64,000 bases of DNA from Edaphochlamys debaryana (Eukaryota > Chlorophyta > Chlorophyceae > Chlamydomonadales), in NCBI GenBank assembly GCA_016858145.1, contig JAEHOE010000222.1, forward strand, positions 46,082 to 110,081, read 5' to 3'. Below, piece after piece: positions 22,901-58,056 of this stretch (position 1 is its first letter; the number at the start of each line of letters is the position of its first letter). The notes below the pieces were generated by a model. It was not told the origin of the DNA. It was given only the letters and a program-made list of their open reading frames with translations, and did no database searches. A program made the translations under genes and the position numbers.

Positions 22901-25527
22901 GACTCGCCGCCGCCCGTTGGATATGAGCTCCTGCGCAGAGGGGCGCGGAGCAGAGGCGGGGGGGCGGTGGGCGCCAGCATGGTACCCTTCCGGGTGCACC
23001 GCCTCAGCTGGTCCATTCGCCGCCCCTCCGGGAGCGGTGCGTGTCACAAAGAAGCCTCACCTCACACAATCCGCCCACCGCACAACCCGCCCCACTATGT
23101 CCCGCAAGCCAACGCCCATGCTCAGAAAGAGCCACGTTGTCCCGACCTCCCCTTCACTCATCTCCCGCGCCCCCACGCCCTCCCCTCCCCCCCCCCACCT
23201 GCGGGTTGTTGGGGCTGAACCGCAGCGAGTGCTGCACGTCCCCCGCCGGCACCGCCGTGAGCACCGAGGGGCGCAGGGGCCCGGGGGCGGAGCCGGGCGG
23301 GGCGGCGTCGGCGGGGGTCAGCAGCGCGCCCATGGACCAGAGGGCAACCTGGGGGAGGGGACAGGAGGGGAAGGGGGGTGGTGTTCGAAGCTGATAAGCG
23401 GGAGAGCGGGAAGGTGGGGGGGGGGGGGGAGCGTGTGTGGTTCGTGTCGGAGAGCCATGGGGTGGGCGTCAGCAGCGGGAGGCGTCAACCACCTTCACCC
23501 TTCTTACCTGCCCGCTCCTTTCCTCCAGTCAGGCGGGAGACTCTATTCAGCGGAGAGCGAGCACATAAAGGCTCCCTGCGTTTGATCGCCGGGCCGGGCA
23601 TCTCCTGCCCCCCCCTGCCCCCCCCCCCCCCCCACCCGCCCACCTCCTGCTCCCCCGTCTCCGGGTCCGGCGCCGACACGCTGGCCAGCCACTGCCCGTC
23701 CGCCGACACGTCCATGGTGTGCACCCCGTGGCGGTGGGGGGCGGACACGGTGCGGGAGGGCAGGCCCGTGCGCACGTTCCACACCACCTGGGGGGGCGGG
23801 GCGCGGGTGTTTGGTTGCTGAGCGGGATCGCGCCGGCGCCAGGGAAGCATAGGGGGCGGGGGGGTTAACGGGGGGGAACGTGTTGTGGAAACCGGTCAAA
23901 GGCTGAAACAAGCGGTATGGTGGATCCACATCGCGTCGGTGGATCCCCGGCGACGACCGCCCCACCCGGGCACCGGTCCACTCCATTGGGTTCACTCCCA
24001 GCCCCTGCCCAGGACGGGTCCACGGGTGCACGGACGGACAGGGCACGGACGGCAGCCCCGTGCCAGCCAGGGCCGCATGGGCCCAGCGGCGCCCGAGGCC
24101 CTCTCAGCGCCACCGTGGGCCGTGCTCCAGCCCCTGCCCTGCACTGACATTGTCCCCTGGGCTGCGAGCCGCAGGTAAGGAGGGCATCACCTTTACCGTG
24201 CCCTCCCTGAGCTCTTGGTTCCAACACCCCGGCCGCTTGGTGCCCCACACCGCCCCTTCCCGCGCTGGGCTGCGCGGGCTGTCCCCGGGCAAGCGCCGGC
24301 CGGCGGCCGAAGGCGGGAGGCGTCGCCCGACCGCACCGAGCCCGGCCCTGGCCGGCCATGGCGGGCCCAAGCGGGCCCAAGCCCCGTGCCGCCAGCCGCT
24401 GTGGGGCCGCCCTCCCGGTGCCGCCGGCGCAGGGGGCTCAAGCGAGGGCCGCGCGGGCGCCAGCACGTGGCAGAGCGCCCGCCTGAGCTCCGTGGACCTG
24501 CCCCTGCCCCTTGGCCGCAGCCGCAGAAGCCACCAGGGGCTAGGGCGGGTAGCCACGTATTGGAAAGGGTAGCCGCGCGGCCTGGCCTGGGCCCGGCCGA
24601 TCAGGCGGGCAGCCACGTGCCGGAAAGGGGTAGCCGCGCGGCCTGGCCGAACTGGAGCCAGCCTGGTGGCCGCCAGCCCCTGGGTGCCGCCGGGGGCCGC
24701 GCTGGGAAGCAGCTGGGCAGGTGCCCAGGCTCAGCTGCGCGGCGCAGCCCGCAGCAGCGGCCCCCAGGCAGTTGCAAATGCAGCCTGCCAGCTTGGCCCT
24801 GGCCCTGGCCCCCAGGCTGTCGGGGTCGCGGCCTTTGACCTGAGGCGTGCCGCCTCACCTGCCTCCGCCCAACCTGCCACTCCTACCACACCCCACCACG
24901 CTGTCTGCTTCCCTGAGCCCCGTGCCCCCCCCTCCTGCCTCCCGCGGGCAGCCCCTGCCGCTCTTGCTCCCCAGGGCCCCCCCCGGCGACTCTTACCAGC
25001 AGAGCCTCTGGGCCCGTGTCCGCCGTGATCACATGGGAGCGGTCCTCCGTGGTCACGATGCACGTGATGGGGCTGGTGTGGCCCTGTTGGGGGGAAGGGG
25101 CAAGAGGGCAGCAATTGAAGGAGACGGGAGGGCAATAAAACATGCGGGTCTGGACCGCGGACGGCAGTTCTGCCCACGGGTACCGCGGCCCAGACCCCCC
25201 CTGCACTCCCCAGAGTCTGAGGCTCGAACTATGACCTTCCCAGACACGGCCCCCTACCCCCCCACCTGCAGGAAGACCTGTCTCCGCAGCCGCTTGTCAT
25301 AGATGACAGCGGTGTTGGCCGCTAGGTAGCAAATTTTGTCCGTGTAGCCATCGGACAGGTTGACCACGCTATGCTTGATGTGCGCTGAGGCCCCGAAGAC
25401 CCAGCTCAGGGCCTGCAACCACAGAAACCCCTCGTTTAGCGCTTCGCGTGTGGTATGGCCCACAGGCTCCAGACATGCGCCATCGAGGGTCGCGGCTCAC
25501 CAGAGCTTGCTGGTCCTCAGTCGCCAT
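16886..25527 (-). CDS. CFAP251: CFAP251 (WDR66), WD-repeat protein of the ciliary calmodulin/spoke complex
   Basis: Twenty-four exons in unbroken phase give about 918 residues: 25527-25501, 25412-25266, 25083-24997, 23787-23644, 23348-23199, 22930-22862, 22709-22623, 22345-22283, 22093-21919, 21711-21575, 21428-21285, 21038-20784, 20494-20375, 20144-20064, 19898-19784, 19546-19455, 19268-19182, 18981-18861, 18715-18558, 18313-18268, 18003-17909, 17639-17489, 17239-17177 and 17028-16886. The start ALSWVFGASAHIKHSVVNLS and GHTSPITCIVTTEDRSHVIT match the family opening, and WD-like blades run to about residue 720. The C-terminal 150 or so residues are an EF-hand/calmodulin-like region (VPVEMVPDLMRAAGFYPSES, KLTREQLLSLLQGAGEQMS). 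In Chlamydomonas FAP251 works with FAP61 and FAP91 at the base of radial spoke 3 in axonemes. Intron 3 is the largest (1.2 kb). Start Met 25527 is the only ATG in frame before a good donor. Confidence 0.93.
24548..24650. repeat. two-unit repeat inside CFAP251 intron 3
   Basis: Two units of about 57 bases share GCGGGTAGCCACGT / GCGGGCAGCCACGT followed by GGTAGCCGCGCGGCCTGGCC. They lie in the 1.2 kb intron 3, which otherwise shows no coding chain. Confidence 0.6.
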
Positions 25528-25927
25528 CCTAGTGTGTGCACTATATAGCGTTAGCAACTACGCAATGCGGTCTTGGTTCATCGCGTCAGCTTGTGCTCGG
25601 AATGCTTCGTCCCGCGGTCCGGTTTGCTTTGCGGCTATGTAATCACGTTGTCCTAGTTTCTTTGTCGACGTTTCGAGTTGGTGGTGAGCAGCGATTGAAA
25701 GCGGGAGGCGCGCGAGCTTGCATCGAAGTCCGGGATGGGCCTGCACAGGTGCGGGGACAGCTCACAGGGCCGCCTCGCAGGTCGTGCAGTAACCTCGCTC
25801 TGCAATCAATTTCTCGCGGCTCCCTGCGTGTAACGCTGCTCCCTGTATCAGCTCTGCGCTGCACTTCCGACACGCCCTCTGCTGTTTTCGAGCCCGAGGG
25901 CCTCAACACTCACCTCTCTCAGCTACA
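25528..25927. promoter_or_regulatory. divergent promoter region CFAP251 / lipoyl-KGD4 gene
   Basis: A 400-base gap separates the start codons of two genes transcribed away from each other. The sequence is less GC-rich than its surroundings and has few homopolymer runs. It must hold both 5' leaders and probably a shared promoter. No specific motif was identified. Confidence 0.5.
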
Positions 25928-28548
25928 ATGGCTGCTAGGTTGACATTGATGCACGGGATAGGGCTGTGGAGCGGCGCATCGGCACTTGCGCAACACGCTC
26001 CCGCCCTGGCACGCCTCTTGTGCGTATCGCGGATCCTCGGCTTCCCCGACGTGGTCGTGCCTTCCCTTGGCGAGTCAATGAAGGAGGGCACCATCGCGAC
26101 GGTGCTCAAGCAGGCAAGTGCGCGTGCATGGCGATGGGCCAGGGTTGCGGTTGCGGGGCCCGCTGCGCGTCCCTGCCGCCGCCGGGAGGCGGTGTGCAGC
26201 GACCTCCATGCCTTCTTGCTACCCGCGTGACATCGTCTCCGCCGGCGACCTCACGTGTGCGAGGGCGTCAGCGAACCCGCCCCCGGCCCCGGGGTGACAC
26301 CATCTGTCATGCGAGCACCCAGCGGCGAGCCGCGAGCGGCATCCAAAGCGGCTGTCGCGAGGACGACCGATGCATTAGGGGAATCCCTTCAAGGGGATGG
26401 GAGGTCGTGGTGGGTGATCAGCCCCAGCGAGGGCAAGCACGGGTCCGGCACAGGTGCCCACAGACCCACCTCCCCTCCTCAGTCCCTTTCCCGGCAGCCC
26501 CTAGCAAACCATGCAGGCTCTCTCTAGGACCCCTCGGTCAAAAGATGCAGCCGCGAATGGCACGGCCGCTACAGAGCTCGGTCAATTTGCTGCAATTGCG
26601 CTAACCGCTACGCCGGGCGCACCCCTTGACTGATGCTCGTGCTCGTGCTCGTGCTCGTCCGTCCAGCCTGGTCGCTGCGGTGCCCGGCCCCAAGCACCCC
26701 CTTCTCCCCTGATCACACCCTGCCCTCCCACCCGAGCGTGCACCCCTGCCGGCTGAGCTGTCCTCCCTCCCTCCTTGTCCTGTCTCGTCCTATACATGCA
26801 AGGATTCCCTGGCGTCGGCGCGGTCCCGCTCAGCAACAAACACCCTCCTCTCCCCCCCCCTGACAGGTCGGGCAGCCCGTCAGCGTGGATGAGGTCATTG
26901 CTCAGGTGAGGGGAGGGGAAGGAAAGCAGATCGTGGCAGGGAGGGAAGGAGAAGAGGGGCCTCGGTTTACGTAACCCCGTCCAGGTAGCGACGGCAAAGC
27001 AGGCCTGCGATCCAGAGATCCAGCGATCACGCCATCACCGTGCCGAACAACCCCCGCTCCCCGCCCCCTCCCATCTCCCCTCCCCTTCCCCCCCCTGACA
27101 GGTGGAGACGGACAAGGTGACCATTGACGTGAAGGCGCCGCAGGGGGGCTTCATCACCAAGGTGGGGGCAGGGAGGGGACGGGGTGGGGGCAGGGAGGGA
27201 CGGGGTGGGGGCAGGGAGGGACGGGGGTGGGGGCAGGGAGGGACGGGGTGGGGGCAGGGAGGGACGGGGCGGGGGGCAGGGAGGGACGGGGTGGGGGCAG
27301 GGAGGGGACGGGGCGGGGGCAGGGAGGGACGGGGTGGGGGCAGGGAGGGGACGGGGCGGGGCCAGGGAGGGACGGGGTGGGGGCAGGGAGGGGACGGGGC
27401 GGGGGCACGGAGGGACGGGGTGGGGGCAGGGAGGGACGGGGTGGGGGCAGGGAGGGGACGGGGGTCGGGGCAGGGAGGGGACGGGGCGGGGGCAGGGAGG
27501 GACGGGGTGGGGGCAGGGAGGGGACGGGGCGGGGGGCACGGAGGGACGGGGTGGGGGCAGGGAGGGACGGGGTGGGGGCAGGGAGGGGACGGGGTCGGGG
27601 CAGGGAGGGGACGGGGCGGGGGCAGGGAGGGACGGGGTGGGGGCAGGGAGGGGACGGGGCGGGGGCACGGAGGGACGGGGTGGGGGCAGGGAGGGACGGG
27701 GTGGGGGCAGGGAGGGGACGGGGTGGGGGCAGGGAGGGACGGGGTGGGGGCAGGGAGGGGACGGGGCGGGGGCAGGGAGGGGACGGGGCGGGGGCAGGGA
27801 GGGGACGGGGCGGGGGCAGGGAGGGGAGGTGAGGGCACGGAGGGAGGGACGCGCCCGGGATAGGCTGAGAGGGGAGGGGAGGGGAAGGGACGAGAGAAAG
27901 GGGTTCGGCATGGTGGTTCGGATGGAAGCAGCACCCATAGACCCCACCTTACCTCTCACCCCCGCAATCCAAGCGGCCCACCTCACCTCTCACGCCCACC
28001 CACCCGCCCCTCAACCCCACCTCCCACTCCAGGTGTGCGTCAAGGCCAGTGACGTGGTGACCCCTGGGACCGTGGTGGCGGTGGTGGGGGCCAGCGCGGG
28101 AGCGGCAGCGGGCGGGCCCACGCCCGCGGGCCCAGGCGGGCCCACCGGGGCCTCCGCGGGCCTGGGCCACGCTGCCACCGCCGCCTCGGCCTCCGGCCGC
28201 ACCCCCTCGATCCACTTCCCGCCCCGCGTAACGCCCGCGGGCGTTCGTATCAGCGACCTCAAGGGCGCAGAGTACGACGCCGCCATAGCCGCCGCCAAGG
28301 CCCCACCGCCGCCAACCGCCGCCCCGGCGGCGGCGCCGGGGGCAGCTCCAGCCGCAGCACCCGCGGCGCCTGCGCCGCCAGCGCCCGCAACCGGGGCGGC
28401 CGCGCCGGCGATGCTCAAGGCGGCGCCGCCGCCCAACCCCAAGAACCGGCTGCCCTTCATCACGCGCCCCGACGGCCGCGGGGGGCCGCCCCGCCGCCCG
28501 CTCAACGCGCGTGAGCTCGACCTCATCAACCTGGGGGGGGCCTACTAG
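25928..28548 (+). CDS. mitochondrial lipoyl-domain protein with KGD4/MRPS36 C-terminus
   Basis: Four phase-0 exons (25928-26113, 26867-26905, 27102-27161, 28033-28548) encode 266 residues. Residues 1-37 look like a mitochondrial presequence. Residues 39-114 are a complete plant-type E2 lipoyl domain (DVVVPSLGESMKEGTIATVL, VETDKVTIDV) with Lys80 as the lipoylation site. A Gly/Ala linker is followed by TPSIHFPPR (153-160), then RISDLKGAEYDAAIAAA, a long Pro/Ala linker, and RRPLNARELDLINLGGAY at the very end. The two short motifs match the conserved ends of KGD4/MRPS36, which tethers E3 to the 2-oxoglutarate dehydrogenase core. No peripheral-subunit-binding or acyltransferase domain follows. Likely role (inference): a lipoyl-bearing tether in that complex. 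Intron 1 begins GC instead of GT (CAG|GCAAGT). Confidence 0.85.
27165..27835 (+). repeat. G-rich minisatellite in intron 3 of the lipoyl-KGD4 gene
   Basis: About thirty units of 21-23 bases, variants of GGGACGGGGTGGGGGCAGGG, fill most of the 871-base intron. The plus (transcript) strand is almost free of C and T, giving runs of four to six G that could form G-quadruplexes in the pre-mRNA. It starts only a few bases after the donor site. Confidence 0.95.
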
Positions 28549-30096: not shown

Positions 30097-32815
30097 CTAG
30101 TTGACACGGAAGCAGGTGCGCCGCGAGTCCCACCAGTTGGCGCCGGTCGCCCCGCAGGTGCCCGTGAAGGGGTTCTTCCGCAGTGCGCACTGCCCTCCGC
30201 CACTGCCCACGCCGCCCCCGGCCCCCGGGCTGCCGCTCGCCGTCCGTGAAGACGTGAAGACGTAGAACTGGCAGTCGGCCACCTGGCGATAGGCGGCAAG
30301 GGAGGAAGGAGAGTGAAGGCGGGGCGGGAATGCGTGGGAATGCGTGGGCATCACCGATGACTGGCGGCGGCCGGCAAGGCCGGTGGAAAGGCGGGGTCGG
30401 GGTGTAACGAGCCAAGGCTTGCGAAGGGGGTCCAGGCAGATACGGGACGCAGGCCGTACCGCGGTTTGGGTACCACCTCCTGTGAGAGCCTACCGCCTTG
30501 CGTACCGAAGCTCTCGAAGGCCGCATCCACACACACACACACCTGGTCGCACGCTGTACGGCACTCGGCCTCGTCCTGCACCGGGTAGTCGGCGCACCCG
30601 CTGTCGCCGTCGTGCCGGTCGCCGGCGACCTCCCAGTTGTCCACGCAGCTGTAGCTGCCTGTGGGCCGTTGATCAATCAATGTACGGTGGCGGTTATTGG
30701 TTAGCGGTCGGGTACACTTCCCATGTCCAGCCCAGGCACGCTCATCGATCAGGTAGGGCTGTGCCCGCCAGCCCTCGGTGGCTGTTACATACCTCACCCC
30801 CCACCGCTGGCGCCTCTCACCGTTGTTGGGCCGCGCCCAGCAGGCCTGCAGCACGCTCGTGTCCCGCGCCCCCCCGAAGCCCTCGCCCCCCGCCAGGCTG
30901 CTGCTGCTGCTGCCGGGGGTGGGCAGGGTCCGCAGCGAGCAGAAGGCGCTGAAGGTGCGGAAGAGCACGGAGAAGACGCACCTGAGGTAGGGGGGCGGAG
31001 GTAAGGGAGGGGGCGGGGGAAGGACACCAAGGGGAGGGCCTTGGTGGTTAGGTACCCATCAGCCCCACAGCCCCACTCACTGTACGCTGGCCAGAGTCTC
31101 TCCACTCTATCTCCACACCACACCACCATGTCCTCTGCTTCATCCCCCAACAACCCGTGTGCAGTGAACGGAACCCCCCAAGGCAACGCAACGCACCGGG
31201 GGTTGGCCTGGCAGAGCCGTTGGCAGCCCTCACGGGTCTGGTTGAAGCTGGCGTCGACCTGCTCGCCGTACAGGTCCGTGCCGAAGGGCAGACAGCTGGC
31301 CCGTTGACCTGCGACGTACAGTACGGCAAAACGGCATGGAGTGGGCGAGTGCGGATGAACAAATCTCAAGCCCAAGCCCAAGCCCAGGCCCAAGCCCAAG
31401 CCCATACCCAAGCCCAAGAAAAAGGCCCCAAGAGGGGGGCATCACGGAAAGCGGTGGGCTGGATAACTACCCCCTGACCCCCCCCCCCTCCGCCCCGAAC
31501 GCTCACCCGTGCACCGGCCGCACGAGAGGGGGCACACCACGTCCGGCTGCGAGCGGCCGCCGAGGGTGGCGTTGCCGCTGCTGCTGTTGCCGCTGCTGCT
31601 GCTGCCGCTGCTGCAGCCGCCCGAGGAGGCGAAGGCGGAGCAGGCGGAAGGCTGCTCGTCGCGGCAGCGCCCGCCCACTGCAGGGGGGGAAGGGGCTTAG
31701 GAAGAGGGAGACCGGGGAGGGCGAGAAGAGGAGAGGCACCGGACCTCGTCAAAATCCGTCCGCACATACGCAGAGTCAGTGGCCCACTCCTGCAGCGCCC
31801 CCTCCCTCCCCCCACACAAACACGCCGCACGCACCCGGCCGCACGTACAGGCAGTGGCCCGCGCTGCTGGCGTTAACTCGGGGCCACACAGCGGCCTTGA
31901 TCCACCCCCCCTCGGCCCCCTGTAAGCCGCCGGAGCTGAAGCCGCGGCAGGAGGGGTTGCGGTCGCACATAGCGGCAGCGACTGCGGGCGGCAAGGGGGG
32001 GGGGGGGGGCGACGGGGCACGAGAGGCAGGGGGGTAGGTAAGCGTGGGGTAGGAGGGGCGCGTGTGGACACCGCCCTCGCTTACCGGCAGGGTCGCTGCT
32101 GCCGGTGCTGAAGATGTCGTCTCCGGGGTGGTCCTCGCCGCAGTACGGCGTGTACCCGGGCAGCTCCTGGCAGGCTGGGGGGCGGGGGCGGGGAAGGGGA
32201 CATCGGGGGAAGACAGGAGAGACAGGAGTCGCTTCGAGAGTGACCCCTCACACACCTCCGCGAACCACGGAACCGGGGGGGTCTGGGGCGCACTGCGGCT
32301 CATGCCCGGGCGCCGGCCCTGGCTCACCCGGGGGAGGCGACGGAGCGCCTGGCGGTACCGGTAAAGGGGGCGGTGGAATGGGGGGTGGAGGGCTTTGGGG
32401 CGGTGGGGAGGGCCGCGGCGGTGGCGGGCTCGGTGGGGGCCCCGGCGAGGGGGGCTCGGGCGAGGGGGGTGGGTCGGGCGAGGGGGGCGGGTCGGGCGAG
32501 GGGGGTGGGTCGCGTGCCTCCGGCGGGGGCCGGCGGCTGAGGACGATGAGCTTCAGGGACCGCCCTGACCGCTGCGGTAAGCTGCGAGGGCATGACGGTA
32601 CAACGACGGGCCAAGAAGAAGGATGAGAGCACGGGTTGCAGCAGGGTACGGTCGGTATAGGGGCTCTGGTGTCGTGGGGTCACGGTGTGGGCAATCGGCA
32701 GCAGGTGTGCGCTGGGTTTGGGTCCTCCCCACCTGGCGCCTGCAGGCCCGCACAGAGCTGCCAGGAGCGGTATCAGGGAGATGACTGCCGCGGTACCAGC
32801 GCGCGTCGAAGCCAT
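30097..32815 (-). CDS. secreted Pro-rich, Cys-rich mosaic protein (PAN-like and ShKT-like modules)
   Basis: The N-terminus MASTRAGTAAVISLIPLLAA is a clear signal peptide. A second exon (about 32590-32256) encodes a repeat of Pro-Pro-Pro-Ser-Pro-Asp type, like the hydroxyproline-rich rods of volvocine wall and matrix proteins. Exons 32174-32085, 31981-31835, 31677-31507, 31308-31197, 30981-30821, 30658-30543 and 30282-30097 follow in phase. They hold Cys-rich modules: one matching the ShKT pattern (CRDEQPSACSAF to CPLSCGRCTG) with a Ser/Gly insert, and at least two PAN/Apple-like segments (CQRLCQANPRC across an intron; CRTACDQVADCQFYVF). The likely place is the extracellular matrix or cell wall. 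The exon 1 to 2 junction is not resolved because the best donor (phase 2) and the acceptor frame disagree. Module names are inferred from Cys spacing. Confidence 0.68.
31372..31425. repeat. hexanucleotide repeat (CAAGCC)n in an intron
   Basis: About nine units of CAAGCC with minor changes lie in the intron between exons 31677-31507 and 31308-31197 of the Cys-rich protein gene. Confidence 0.9.
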
Positions 32816-47392: not shown

Positions 47393-49763
47393 CTATGGCC
47401 CCCGCCCCGGCCCCCCATCCCCCTCCCCGTCTGTGAGCTCCGCGGTGCCCCCCAGCCATGTCTCTGGGGGGGGGGGGTAAAAGGGAGAGAGGCAAGGCGG
47501 GGGAGGGAGGTGAGGTGAGCATGTAGGGGGGGGGCGGGGGAGAGAGGGAGGCTCCACGGTGCCCCCCAGCCAGGGCTCTGAAGGGGCGAGGGAGAGGGGG
47601 TGTGGGGAAACGGGGATAGAGGAAGGAGGGTTGGGGCGGGGTGAGGGGTTGAGGGGGAGGGGCACGAAGAAGGCGCCCGAAGGGACGAGAACGACGCAGG
47701 CTGCTGATGGACGTCACGCCGCATGAGCACTGTCCCCTTCACTGACCGCCCTGAGCCCCCTCTTCCCTCCCCCTTTCCCCCCCTCCTCCCCCGCCGCTCC
47801 CCTTGCCTATGAGGTCCTCCTCCCCCCCCCCCCCCTTGCCTATGAGGTGCCTCAGCGCCAGGTTGGGGTAGAGGTCCTCCTCCGACAGAGGGGCTCCGTT
47901 GACCGGGTCCGTGTGTTGCTGCTGCACCCACCTGTGTGTGGGGGGGGGGGGGGGAGAGGGGGGAGGCAAGGGGGGGGGGGGCGGCAAGGGGGGGGGGGCA
48001 AGAGGGGGAGAGGCAAGAGGGGGGGAAGGCAGCGGGTGAAGCGAGGGTTGAAGACAGGACAGCCTCCAACCCAGGAGGGCAGAGGGGTGGAAGACGAGAC
48101 AGGCAACCGCTTCGTGCGGATTTCAAGCGCAGCTGCAATGTACGACACCACCTTACGCCGCCGTACACAAAGCCTCTCACAACCTACCGCTGTATGCACT
48201 CGTGCTCGTACGTGGCCCCGCTGGGCGCCACCACGGGCACCCGCATGAGCGCATGACTAATGGGGCAGCACAGGCAGTCAGGCGCGGCGTCGAGGCGGCG
48301 GTTGGTTTTGGCCGTGTCGATCGGCGGCGGCAGGCGGCGGCGCGGCGGGCCGGCCCGGCGGCGGCGGATGAGCGCCTCCACGTGCAGGCGCAGGATGAAG
48401 ATGAGAGCGGGGGGCTCGGGCACGCCCTTGTGTGTGGGAGGCAAAAGAGGGGGGGAGGTTAGGGGCGGGCGGGTGAAGTGAGTGAGGGAAACGGGGAAGG
48501 GGGTCAGAGCACAAGCTTGGCCCCCGCAGCTTGCGTTCCTGCATTCCAGTATGCCCTGGAGGTTGTCCCCGTGAAACCGTACCCCCAGCCATCCACCTCC
48601 GCCCCACCCCTTCGCCTGCGCCAGCCCCCACCTGCGTGCTGTCCCTAAAGTTGTCCGTGTCGAACCACACGCCCAGCCCGTCGCTCCACTCCCAGGCCCC
48701 CGGCAGCGAGGGCGAGCGGCGGAAGAGGAAGGGGTGGTAGGAGGCGGGGGCGTACTCGTACACCCCCTCGGGGGTGGGGGGGAGGCGCTGGAACTCGTCG
48801 GGCAGGAAGTCCAGGTCTGGGGTTGGGGAGTGTGTGTGTGTGGGGGGGGAAAGGCGAAAGAGAAGGAAGGGAGGGGTGGCAGGAGCACAGACCCATGGCG
48901 TCGCGAGGTCCACGTGGGCGGAAGCCCCCGTACTGAGCATCCAACGTGTGCACCCCAGAGGCCCCCAGGCCCTTGCACCCCGCTCCCCCGGCTGCCATCG
49001 GACGCACCCAGCACCGGCCGCTGGAGCAGGGGTAAGAGGACCTGGGGGAGGACAAGACCGAGAGGAGAGGGCGGCGTGGGTCGCGGCGGAGTCAGATGGG
49101 CCCAGTGCAGACCCGTGAGGCCCAGGAGGGTCCACCGTGTCCCAATGTAACTCCAGACCCTCCCCCCTTGCCCCCCTGACCGAACAAACATCAAACATCC
49201 AACCCAGGTGTGTCCGCCTGGGAGCGTTGTGATGAAACCCGCTGGACCTGGCATGCGGTCACCACCCCGCAGCTCCTCGACCCGTTCATCCGTTGCAACC
49301 CCCATCCAGCCGGAGTCCCCTGCCCCTGACCTGTATGAACTTGGACGCCTCAGCGGCGGACACCTCGAACAGCTGCGGAGGTCACACGGGCAAAGCGAGA
49401 AGGCAATGTCGAGGCTGGCGGGGCGGGAAGCCACTACGCGGGTTGAGGGGGGCGCGGGAGGCTCTCCGTCGCTTCATACCACTGGACTACCTCCAGCCTC
49501 TCCCAAGCTGGATAGAGCAAGTGTGCACTTTCTGCCCATTTCCCACTGTCTAGCGCTAGCAGGTCGCCAAAAGACACGGAAAATGCGCTCCGACTGTCAG
49601 CGGCCCGCCTTGCCTGCACCACAAACGAGACAGTTGTACCAGCGACGTAGACCAGCAGAGCTCCTAGCGAGATGGCCGCTGTGTATTTGAGGGCCCGTGC
49701 GCGCGACGGAAGGAAAGTTGGCAGGCTCGCTGCGATGGAGCTCAGCAGCACAGACGCCCTCAT
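47393..49763 (-). CDS. membrane-anchored U-box protein, probable E3 ubiquitin ligase
   Basis: Seven exons in phase (49763-49491, 49372-49331, 49041-49008, 48816-48632, 48426-48188, 47931-47840, 47463-47393) encode about 311 residues. A hydrophobic segment near residues 24-50 (TAAISLGALLVYVAGTTVSF) after a basic start suggests a signal anchor for an organelle or ER membrane. A middle region of unknown fold (DLDFLPDEFQRLPPTPEG, WEWSDGLGVWFDTDNFRDS) precedes a basic stretch and then a U-box from about residue 225: CPISHALMRVPVVAPSGATY, EHECIQRWVQQQHTDPVNG, LYPNLALRHLIETW. U-boxes recruit ubiquitin-conjugating enzymes. The last intron starts with GC (ATAG|GCAAGG), and phase, the codon I-E-T-W and the stop at 47393 all support it. 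If that intron were retained the frame would end at 47739. Target and exact membrane are not known. Confidence 0.8.
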
Positions 49764-55544: not shown

Positions 55545-58056
55545 ATGAGCGTGCTCGCTAGCCACCGCTGCGCGGAGGCGGCTTCGACCTCGCCGCGATG
55601 CCTCGCAAGCCAGCGGCCAGGCGTCGCCCGGGCTCTCCCCCGAGCCCGCCGTGGACCTTCACCTGTCTCGTGCCTCAACCCTCGCAAGCAACACCACGTT
55701 AACGCCGCCGCGGCGTTGCCTTACACGCCGGCCACAACGGTAACCCCGACCACGGCGCCTCGGCCCACATCGGCCGGTGGAGCACCTGGCTCTGGTCTAG
55801 GGGCTGATATCATCGGCCTGGGGCAAGGCATCGTGGACTGGTCGGCATCCGTTTCCGATTCTCTGCTCAACTCATTTGACGTGCCTAAGGGCGGACGCAG
55901 GTAAGCGATTACCTTTTCTGAGCGTTGGGCGTGCGTAGGTTGCGTGGGAGCTTGTGTGCGTGGAGTGCATCCCCGCCGCAAGCCGGCTGTGTGGTGCGCC
56001 CCAGTCCGGCTCTAGCGGCTGCCGCGGTGTGAGCGTGGCACGTAATCCTATCGCTTGGGAGGCTAGGATCCTGGTCGTCGTGGCGACGCGACCGCCTGGA
56101 TAGAATGGCCACAGGCTTGCGGGACTCGCTGCGTGCCTCGGGGTTACCCGCCCTTCACCCGTTTCCCCCCGCATCCTGCTTAATCCTGTAGGGTCATCAC
56201 TGTGGATGAGCGGGCGGCGGTGATGGAGACGCTCGACGAAATGGGCGCCCCGAGCCAGGTGCGCCCGACCTGCCGACCTTCGCCTCGCCCCAATCCTCGA
56301 CTAGTTTGGCTCTGCTACCGTCCTCGATAGCCCCCTCGTCGGCGGGTGGGCTTGGGCTGCGGTGCGGTTGCCGAGCTGCGCGGGTGGTGCCACGCGTCCA
56401 CACCCGGTCCGCAACCTCCTTCGGGTTACCACCGGCCGTTACTCCGCCCTCCGCGCCACCGCACGCGCCCCCGTGCCCACACCCCACTCCCTGCTGCCCT
56501 CTCCCCTCACCCTCCTCACCTTCCTCATCCACCACGCCTCACCTACCCCTCCCAACCACCTCCTGCACCCCAGGTCTCGGCCGGCGGCTCCCTGGCCAAC
56601 ACGCTGGTGGGCGTGGCCCGGCTCTCGCGCGCCTCGGGCCAGGCCCTGCGCGTGGCGCTGGGCGGCTCGCTGGGCACGGACACGCTGGGGCAGTTTTTCA
56701 CCAGCCAGATGCGGCACGCGGGCGTGCGCTGCGTGCTGGACAGCCACCACCCGCCGCACGCGCACGGCGAGGCGCAGGACCGCCCCTCGATGCCCGAGGT
56801 GGCCTCCATGCAGCACCAGGCCCCCGGCCCCAGCGGCCACACGGGCACCGTCATGGTCCTCACCACCCCCGACGCCCAGGTGGGGACACGCGCAGCGCCG
56901 AGGGGGCAGCAGGGGGCGTAGGGGCAGCGCCGAGGAGGGCTGTGACGGGACCTGGACCGCCTTCCCTTGCATCCTGGGGCGCACCCAAGCCCTGGCCACC
57001 ATGGTGTGCAGCCGCCGCGCCCGGCCGTCAAGCCCAAATCCGCACGTGCGCATCGCCCTTGCCTGATTTCCTCCCCGTCTATCCTTACCCGCAGCGCTCG
57101 TTCCTATCGTTCTTTGCCGCCGACCGCCTGGAGCTGTCGGAGCGGCTGCGCGCGGCCGTGCGCTCCAGCCGCATGGTGGTGCTGGAGGGCTACCTGTGGG
57201 AGCTGCCGGGCGCCGAGGAGTACATGATGGAGGTGCTGCGCACGGCGCGCGCGGCAGGCGCGCAGGTGGCCATGACGGCCGGCGACCCCGGGGTCGTCAG
57301 CCGCCACCGCGCCGCCATGCTCCGCGTCGTGCGGGCCGGCATCGACATGCTCTTCACCAACGAGGACGAGGCGGTGGCGCTTGTCGGCTCCTCCCCGTCC
57401 GCACCCTCCTCCGAGGGGGAGGAGGCGCTGGTGAGCGTGGAGGATGCCGCGGCGCTGGCGGCGGGCGGCCGCTCGGGCGTGGAGCTGGCGGCGCTGCAGC
57501 TGGCGGCGGTGTGCCCCATGGTGGTGGTGACGGCGGGGTCCAAGGGGTCCTTTGTGGCGGCCATGGGGCAGCTGCACGAGGTGCCGCCCTACTGGCTGCC
57601 GCAGGGGCCCGTGGACACGTGCGGCGCGGGCGACGCGTACATGGTGAGCGGGGCCTGTATGCTTTCCACGGGGCGTGGGGCTTGTGCGGTTAGGGGCGCA
57701 ACAAGGGGCGGCGGATGAACGAAGCAGGGCCTCCTCGCCTTGTCCGGTGGGCTCTGACCAAAGGCACAACCTTGAAACCCGCGCCCGATCCTGACCCCGC
57801 CTCCCCTCTCCCCCTCGCCCGCTCCTCCCAGGCCGGCTTCTGCTACGCCGTGCTGGCCGGCTACGACCTGCGCACCGCGGGGGAGTTCGCCTCGCGCACC
57901 GCCTCTGCGGTCATCGGCCGCTTCGGGCCGCACCTGTCGGACGAGGACGCGGAGCTGCTGGTGGCGCAGCTGCCGGAGCACACGGGGGCGCTGAGGGTGG
58001 CGCTGGGGGGAGCGGGCGCCGTGGAGCTGGGCGCGGGCGAGTTCGAGGGGCTATGA
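55545..58056 (+). CDS. organelle-targeted PfkB-family carbohydrate/nucleoside kinase
   Basis: Five exons in phase (55545-55900, 56192-56258, 56574-56879, 57095-57643, 57832-58056) encode 500 residues. The first 70 or so residues are rich in Arg, Ser and Ala and poor in acidic residues, as in plastid or mitochondrial transit peptides. The fold then starts at ADIIGLGQGIVDWSASVSD. The substrate-side signature VSAGGSLANTLVGVARLS is at 142-159, and the PfkB signature 2 DTCGAGDAYMAGFCYAV spans exons 4 and 5, with the catalytic base Asp423. MLFTNEDEAVALVG and VVVTAGSKGSFVA fit the family core. Members phosphorylate ribose, fructose, adenosine or related compounds with ATP, and the exact substrate cannot be inferred. 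An acidic Ser-rich insert follows the NEDEA motif. Start Met 55545 is the first ATG of the exon 1 frame. Confidence 0.9.

Follow-up and report, generated by a model that had tools for sequence, protein, structure and literature searches.

A lipoyl domain joined to a KGD4-like C-terminus in Edaphochlamys debaryana: a candidate fourth subunit of the 2-oxoglutarate dehydrogenase complex

How E3 is attached to the eukaryotic 2-oxoglutarate dehydrogenase complex (OGDHC) was unclear before KGD4/MRPS36 was recognized. The locus analysed here raises the question of whether such a tether can bear a lipoyl arm of its own. A preliminary description of the window (the whole 64,000-nucleotide stretch of DNA that was analysed) placed a lipoyl domain with an ETDK turn and Lys80, the motif TPSIHFPPR and the C-terminal segment RRPLNARELDLINLGGAY in one open reading frame of 266 residues, and all of these letters are indeed present. 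The sequence comparisons below suggest that the gene probably encodes a fourth, non-catalytic subunit of mitochondrial OGDHC, in which an N-terminal lipoyl domain of E2o type is added to an E3 tether of the KGD4/MRPS36 type.

The N-terminus of MRPS36 crosslinks to E3 and its C-terminal residues crosslink to E2o; KGD4/MRPS36 is thought to substitute for the subunit-binding domain that is absent from eukaryotic E2o (PMC9974300). The Chaetomium thermophilum homologue has been named E3BPo, since its role is essentially that of the E3-binding protein (E3BP) of the pyruvate dehydrogenase complex (PDC) (PMC10203282).

The Edaphochlamys debaryana assembly that was searched comprises 141.9 Mb in 502 contigs, and the gene lies on the + strand of contig C222. 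Joining four phase-0 exons gives 801 bases including the stop codon, a 266-residue frame that is uninterrupted across all four exons and ends in GGAY-stop. The exons and the lipoyl domain are as follows.

25928..26113, + strand: exon 1, with the start codon, residues 1-39 and the first part of the lipoyl domain; GC donor at 26114
26867..26905, + strand: exon 2, lipoyl domain VGQPVSVDEVIAQ; AG acceptor, GT donor, phase 0
27102..27161, + strand: exon 3, lipoyl domain with ETDK; the codon of Lys80, the expected lipoylation site, is 27114-27116
28033..28548, + strand: exon 4, a single open exon with the last lipoyl strands, TPSIHFPPR, the Ala/Pro linker, the KGD4-like C-terminus and the stop codon
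26048..28083, + strand: lipoyl domain, residues 41-112, by Pfam and NCBIfam profiles; spread over the four exons

Introns 2 and 3 have GT-AG borders and intron 1 is GC-AG (CAG/GCAAGT, the slash marking the border); the GC donor is required for continuity of the lipoyl frame and was counted against the gene model. The third-position GC content (GC3) of exons 1-4 is 0.77, 0.77, 0.95 and 0.87, the GC content of introns 1-3 is 0.68, 0.66 and 0.79 and that of the whole window 0.68; base composition favours the gene model only mildly. The predicted gene model is built on splice sites, frame and domain continuity. Exon 4 by itself encodes the final lipoyl strands (VCVKASDVVTPGTVVAVV) and the entire tail up to the stop codon. 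With both in a single exon, the joining of the lipoyl domain to the KGD4-like tail is independent of the choice of splice sites. Residues 1-39 contain three K/R and no D/E, and are a possible mitochondrial presequence. Intron 3 consists almost entirely of a G-rich minisatellite (27161..27845, + strand) with a period of about 22 or 43 and 90-93% matches.

Several other open frames surround the gene. A divergent neighbour on the - strand (about 24880-25530), whose start MATEDQQAL was placed by eye about 400 bases upstream, has a weak WD40 match (E = 0.029, under the Pfam cut-off) and may share a bidirectional promoter with the gene. A cysteine-containing open reading frame on the - strand (about 30800-31440) matches PAN_4 with E = 1.4e-4, under the Pfam cut-off. 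Further along, an open frame at 48184-49473 on the - strand with CPISHALMRVPVVAPSGATYEHECIQR looks U-box-like by eye, and one at 56210-57718 on the + strand with VDTCGAGDAYMVSG resembles, by its motif and by eye, a pfkB/ribokinase-family sugar kinase.

Residues 41-112 match Pfam Biotin_lipoyl (PF00364) with E = 4.1e-15 and keep the ETDK turn with Lys80 intact. The three top NCBIfam models are all 2-oxoglutarate E2 (PRK05704, 1.7e-19; sucB, 1.7e-18; SucB_Actino, 1.7e-16), followed at lower rank by acetoin E2 (4.4e-14) and pyruvate E2 (1.1e-11); these are full-length models, and the lipoyl part alone scores far under their cut-offs, as expected. Among PDB chains an E2o ranks first (2.5e-12), with pyruvate E2 chains starting at 6.1e-11, close enough behind that this search alone leaves the lipoyl type not clear-cut. 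Identity is 41/75 to the lipoyl domain of the E2o encoded in this genome (locus C48, see below), and 26/73, 23/62, 16/40 and 15/49 to those of the other E2 loci, C186, C115, C43 and C118, the sequences of the last three being incomplete. The five domains are a selection, as PF00364 matches 12 exons genome-wide. By these comparisons the domain ranks as E2o type. A scan of IMG/VR found 207 stretches that fit a pattern and no relative among them; a scan of GTDB gave at least 594 stretches and, among the matches listed, one relative, from Roseivivax lentus (L050), covering residues 41-149.

The absence of an acyltransferase core, part of the preliminary description, is borne out. The 266-residue protein has no match to 2-oxoacid_dh or E3_binding in Pfam (E<=10), and no catalytic exon lies further along, as none of the genome's 15 2-oxoacid_dh matches (E<=0.001) is on contig C222.

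Downstream of the lipoyl domain the tail contains four elements.

28201..28227, + strand: TPSIHFPPR, residues 152-160; resembles the N-terminal P-x-I-x-F of KGD4/MRPS36 (a weak to moderate likeness), the proposed E3-binding end
28273..28437, + strand: Ala/Pro-rich linker by composition, residues 176-230; probably flexible
28450..28467, + strand: LPFITR, residues 235-240; aligns by inspection with LP-x-x-x-R of yeast Kgd4 and human MRPS36
28492..28545, + strand: KGD4-like C-terminus RRPLNARELDLINLGGAY, residues 249-266, by motif controls and grafting; the proposed anchor on the E2o core

The preliminary description had seen KGD4/MRPS36 motifs in the tail and would have counted the lack of a significant profile match against its reading; in direct scans such a match is indeed lacking. 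The Pfam profile PF10937 (KGD4) is silent at E<=10 on the full protein, on its tail and on the tail with the linker removed, and it does not match the last 21 or the last 36 residues; among controls, the last 21 residues of yeast Kgd4 score 25.4 bits (4.9e-5) and those of human MRPS36 give no match either. Whole human MRPS36 reaches 25.8 bits against a Pfam cut-off of 22. In a linker-excised construct Kgd4-YMR31 is the sole Pfam family reported, at 13.5 bits (E = 0.23; cut-off 22). Members of the KGD4 family are short and easily missed. Since direct scans have limited power, PF10937 was used instead as the judge of a graft, in which yeast Kgd4 received other C-terminal segments of 18 residues and the chimaera was rescored. 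Native yeast Kgd4 scores 104.9 bits, and 74.0 bits without its last 18 residues. With the last 18 residues of the window protein the score is 98.8 bits (+24.8), against 96.0 bits (+22.0) with those of human MRPS36, and four hand-made rearrangements of the segment from the window protein give 74.5-75.9 bits (+0.5 to +1.9). The first interpretation is partly supported: the C-terminal segment resembles KGD4 by graft, and direct profile scans do not find it.

Alignment of the same 18 residues, anchored at the C-terminus, gives nine identities between the window protein and yeast, six between human and yeast and five between the window protein and human. The combined BLOSUM score of the window protein's C-terminus is 74; the maximum is 24 among 3,716 control C-termini (distinct open reading frames from 237,224 bases of the window and the loci), and none of 200,000 shuffles reaches it. 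The stop codon directly ends the match. By these measures the C-terminal KGD4 match is far above chance. A three-way alignment also places LP-x-x-x-R, common to the window protein, yeast and human, ahead of the C-terminal motif. The N-terminal motif is weaker. The score of TPSIHFPPR is equalled in 44 of 5,000 shuffled tails and in 9 of 506 open stretches of 153 residues; in the graft it gives 89.6 bits on PF10937, with five rearrangements at 80.8-86.4 and the human segment at 93.5. Taken alone, TPSIHFPPR is only suggestive as a KGD4 N-terminal motif. A single-sequence AlphaFold2 model of exon 4 alone is of too low quality to be informative (pLDDT 51.3, pTM 0.22); its two short helices lie at residues 174-184 and 254-261 (ARELDLIN).

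The 15 2-oxoacid_dh matches fall into five loci (C43, C48, C115, C118 and C186). The C48 protein, assembled by eye from L036 and lacking its N-terminal segment, is E2o (TIGR01347, succinyltransferase, 1e-147 in NCBIfam) and carries its own lipoyl and catalytic domains (Pfam). Its linker is Ala/Pro-rich and free of E3_binding matches (E<=10), and C48 thus follows the eukaryotic E2o pattern; E3_binding is found above the Pfam cut-off at the other four loci. An E2o without a detectable subunit-binding domain, as had been anticipated, is what the genome encodes. The C48 lipoyl domain spans three exons and was missed by the Pfam exon search; with the window protein as query the lipoyl exons of C186 and C115 are retrieved and that of C48 is not. 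The presence of this C48 domain rules out the idea that E2o has no lipoyl domain and relies on that of the window protein. Of the two roles first considered for the fused arm, replacing the E2o arm or adding to it, replacement is thus disfavoured; since C48 E2o retains its own domain, the fused arm would supplement it.

The search for a stand-alone KGD4 was of low sensitivity. A genome scan with PF10937 gave no match, nor did it in any of 14 control genomes, and is hence uninformative. The human query found one chance-level match (L043, E = 0.17), which on inspection is not KGD4, and the yeast query one chance-level match (L044, E = 0.53); a 26-mer from the yeast C-terminus matched nothing in the genome, the window included. 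The C-terminal 45-mer of the window protein retrieved, besides itself, four weak matches (E 0.7-5.7): in L046 the frame continues beyond the aligned GG, and the remaining three stop short of the end of the motif. Failure to find a stand-alone KGD4 is weak evidence, because the human and yeast queries also miss the window gene itself. Against the PDB, human MRPS36 had three matches, all weak and to unrelated proteins (E>=0.29), and yeast Kgd4 had none at E<=1.

With KGD4/MRPS36/YMR31 (E3BPo in Chaetomium thermophilum) the window protein shares E-x-x-x-I-x-x-G-G at the end of the protein, LP-x-x-x-R before it and, less certainly, P-x-I-x-F on the N-terminal side, as well as a partner E2o without a detectable subunit-binding domain. 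It differs in its size, 266 residues against about 11 kDa given for mammals (PMC9974300) or 135 residues (PMC10203282), in its extra E2o-type lipoyl domain, long Ala/Pro linker and short insert ahead of the C-terminal motif, and in escaping a direct Pfam scan. As it fails on size and on the Pfam cut-off, the protein should not be classed as a canonical KGD4; it plausibly works like one. The idea of a KGD4-type tether fits well with lipoyl sequence of E2o type and a KGD4-type C-terminus in one exon, and with an E2o of the same genome that has no detectable subunit-binding domain. From E2o itself (SucB/DLST), with which it shares the lipoyl type, the protein differs in having no catalytic domain and introns elsewhere. 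A further analogue is PDC E3BP (PDHX, Pdx1), which likewise combines a lipoyl domain, a flexible linker, a role in E3 recruitment (proposed here for the window protein) and no acyltransferase activity; unlike E3BP, the window protein has neither a peripheral subunit-binding domain nor an E2-like core. The likeness would be convergent, because the E3- and core-binding parts of the window protein are KGD4-like.

We infer that the protein is expressed, imported into mitochondria, lipoylated and bound to both E3 and E2o. In the predicted order the lipoyl domain is followed by a linker, the E3-binding motif, the long Ala/Pro linker and the E2o anchor. The C-terminal segment with ELDLINLGGAY would dock onto the E2o core and the TPSIHFPPR segment would bind E3, so that the lipoyl arm would be attached to the E3 tether, not to the catalytic E2 chain; the long Ala/Pro linkers would free the Lys80-lipoyl arm to reach E1o, E2o and, above all, the E3 on the same chain. 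The protein would then play in OGDHC the role of E3BP (Pdx1/PDHX) in PDC. With somewhat less assurance than the general assignment, we favour a more specific history: in this lineage OGDHC would have its own E3-binding protein with a lipoyl arm, made by fusion of an E2o-type lipoyl domain with KGD4, convergent with PDC E3BP, acting beside an arm-bearing E2o and possibly replacing a stand-alone KGD4. One observation argues against KGD4 being strictly required in every complex: OGDHC activity in lysates of HEK-293 cells showed no rise on co-transfection of MRPS36 (work cited in PMC8146983).

The alternative that fares best leaves the biology unchanged: there is an even chance that the lipoyl-KGD4 fusion is commonplace among green algae or green plants and merely undescribed, or described elsewhere, in which case this genome would be nothing special. 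MRPS36 homologues (304 sequences) are reported only in eukaryotes, yet the main text of PMC9974300 mentions no alga or plant. In the open-licence literature on KGD4/MRPS36/Ymr31/E3BPo we found no description of such a fusion, which green algae may commonly have. PMC10203282 regards a KGD4 linked with holocytochrome c synthase as a misannotation, now divided into two UniProt entries.

It is unlikely that the protein is a KGD4 tether whose lipoyl domain chiefly holds E3 or E1o by its surface, as a docking handle, and carries neither succinyl groups nor electrons. The genome's E2o already has its own arm, and unloaded lipoyl domains may anchor on E1o and E3 (PMC10203282); against this, the ETDK lipoyl-lysine turn and its surroundings are intact, as selection for lipoylation would give. 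A free lipoyl carrier or a decayed E2o duplicate with a KGD4-like C-terminus by chance is very improbable. The tail is Ala/Pro-rich, its N-terminal motif alone is only suggestive and Pfam finds no direct KGD4 match, C-terminal pieces included, but chance does not readily give a C-terminal score equalled by 0 of 3,716 open reading frames and 0 of 200,000 shuffles, or a graft gain of 24.8 bits. Nor does the gene resemble a recent partial copy of E2o, because its lipoyl-region introns (KQ/VG, AQ/VE and TK/VC) nowhere coincide with those of C48 (KKP/G and ETDK/V); a recent truncated duplicate was rejected on these positions. The frame is open over all four exons. Least probable of all is membership in a different 2-oxoacid dehydrogenase complex, for example as the E3-binding protein of mitochondrial PDC or BCKDC. 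A lipoyl domain and E3-tether-like segment without a catalytic core, as in fungal Pdx1, and the PDB ranking would allow it; against it stand the E2o-type ranking of the lipoyl domain, the lack of an E3_binding domain in the protein and the E3_binding domains that the remaining four E2 loci have of their own.

If the reading as a lipoyl-bearing, KGD4-type OGDHC subunit is right, the fusion would provide independent, sequence-level evidence that the KGD4 adaptor belongs to OGDHC, close to a working lipoyl arm. Two complexes would have reached the combination of lipoyl arm, flexible linker and E3 tether separately, and the fusion would be a test case for whether lipoyl arms must be covalently joined to the E2 core.
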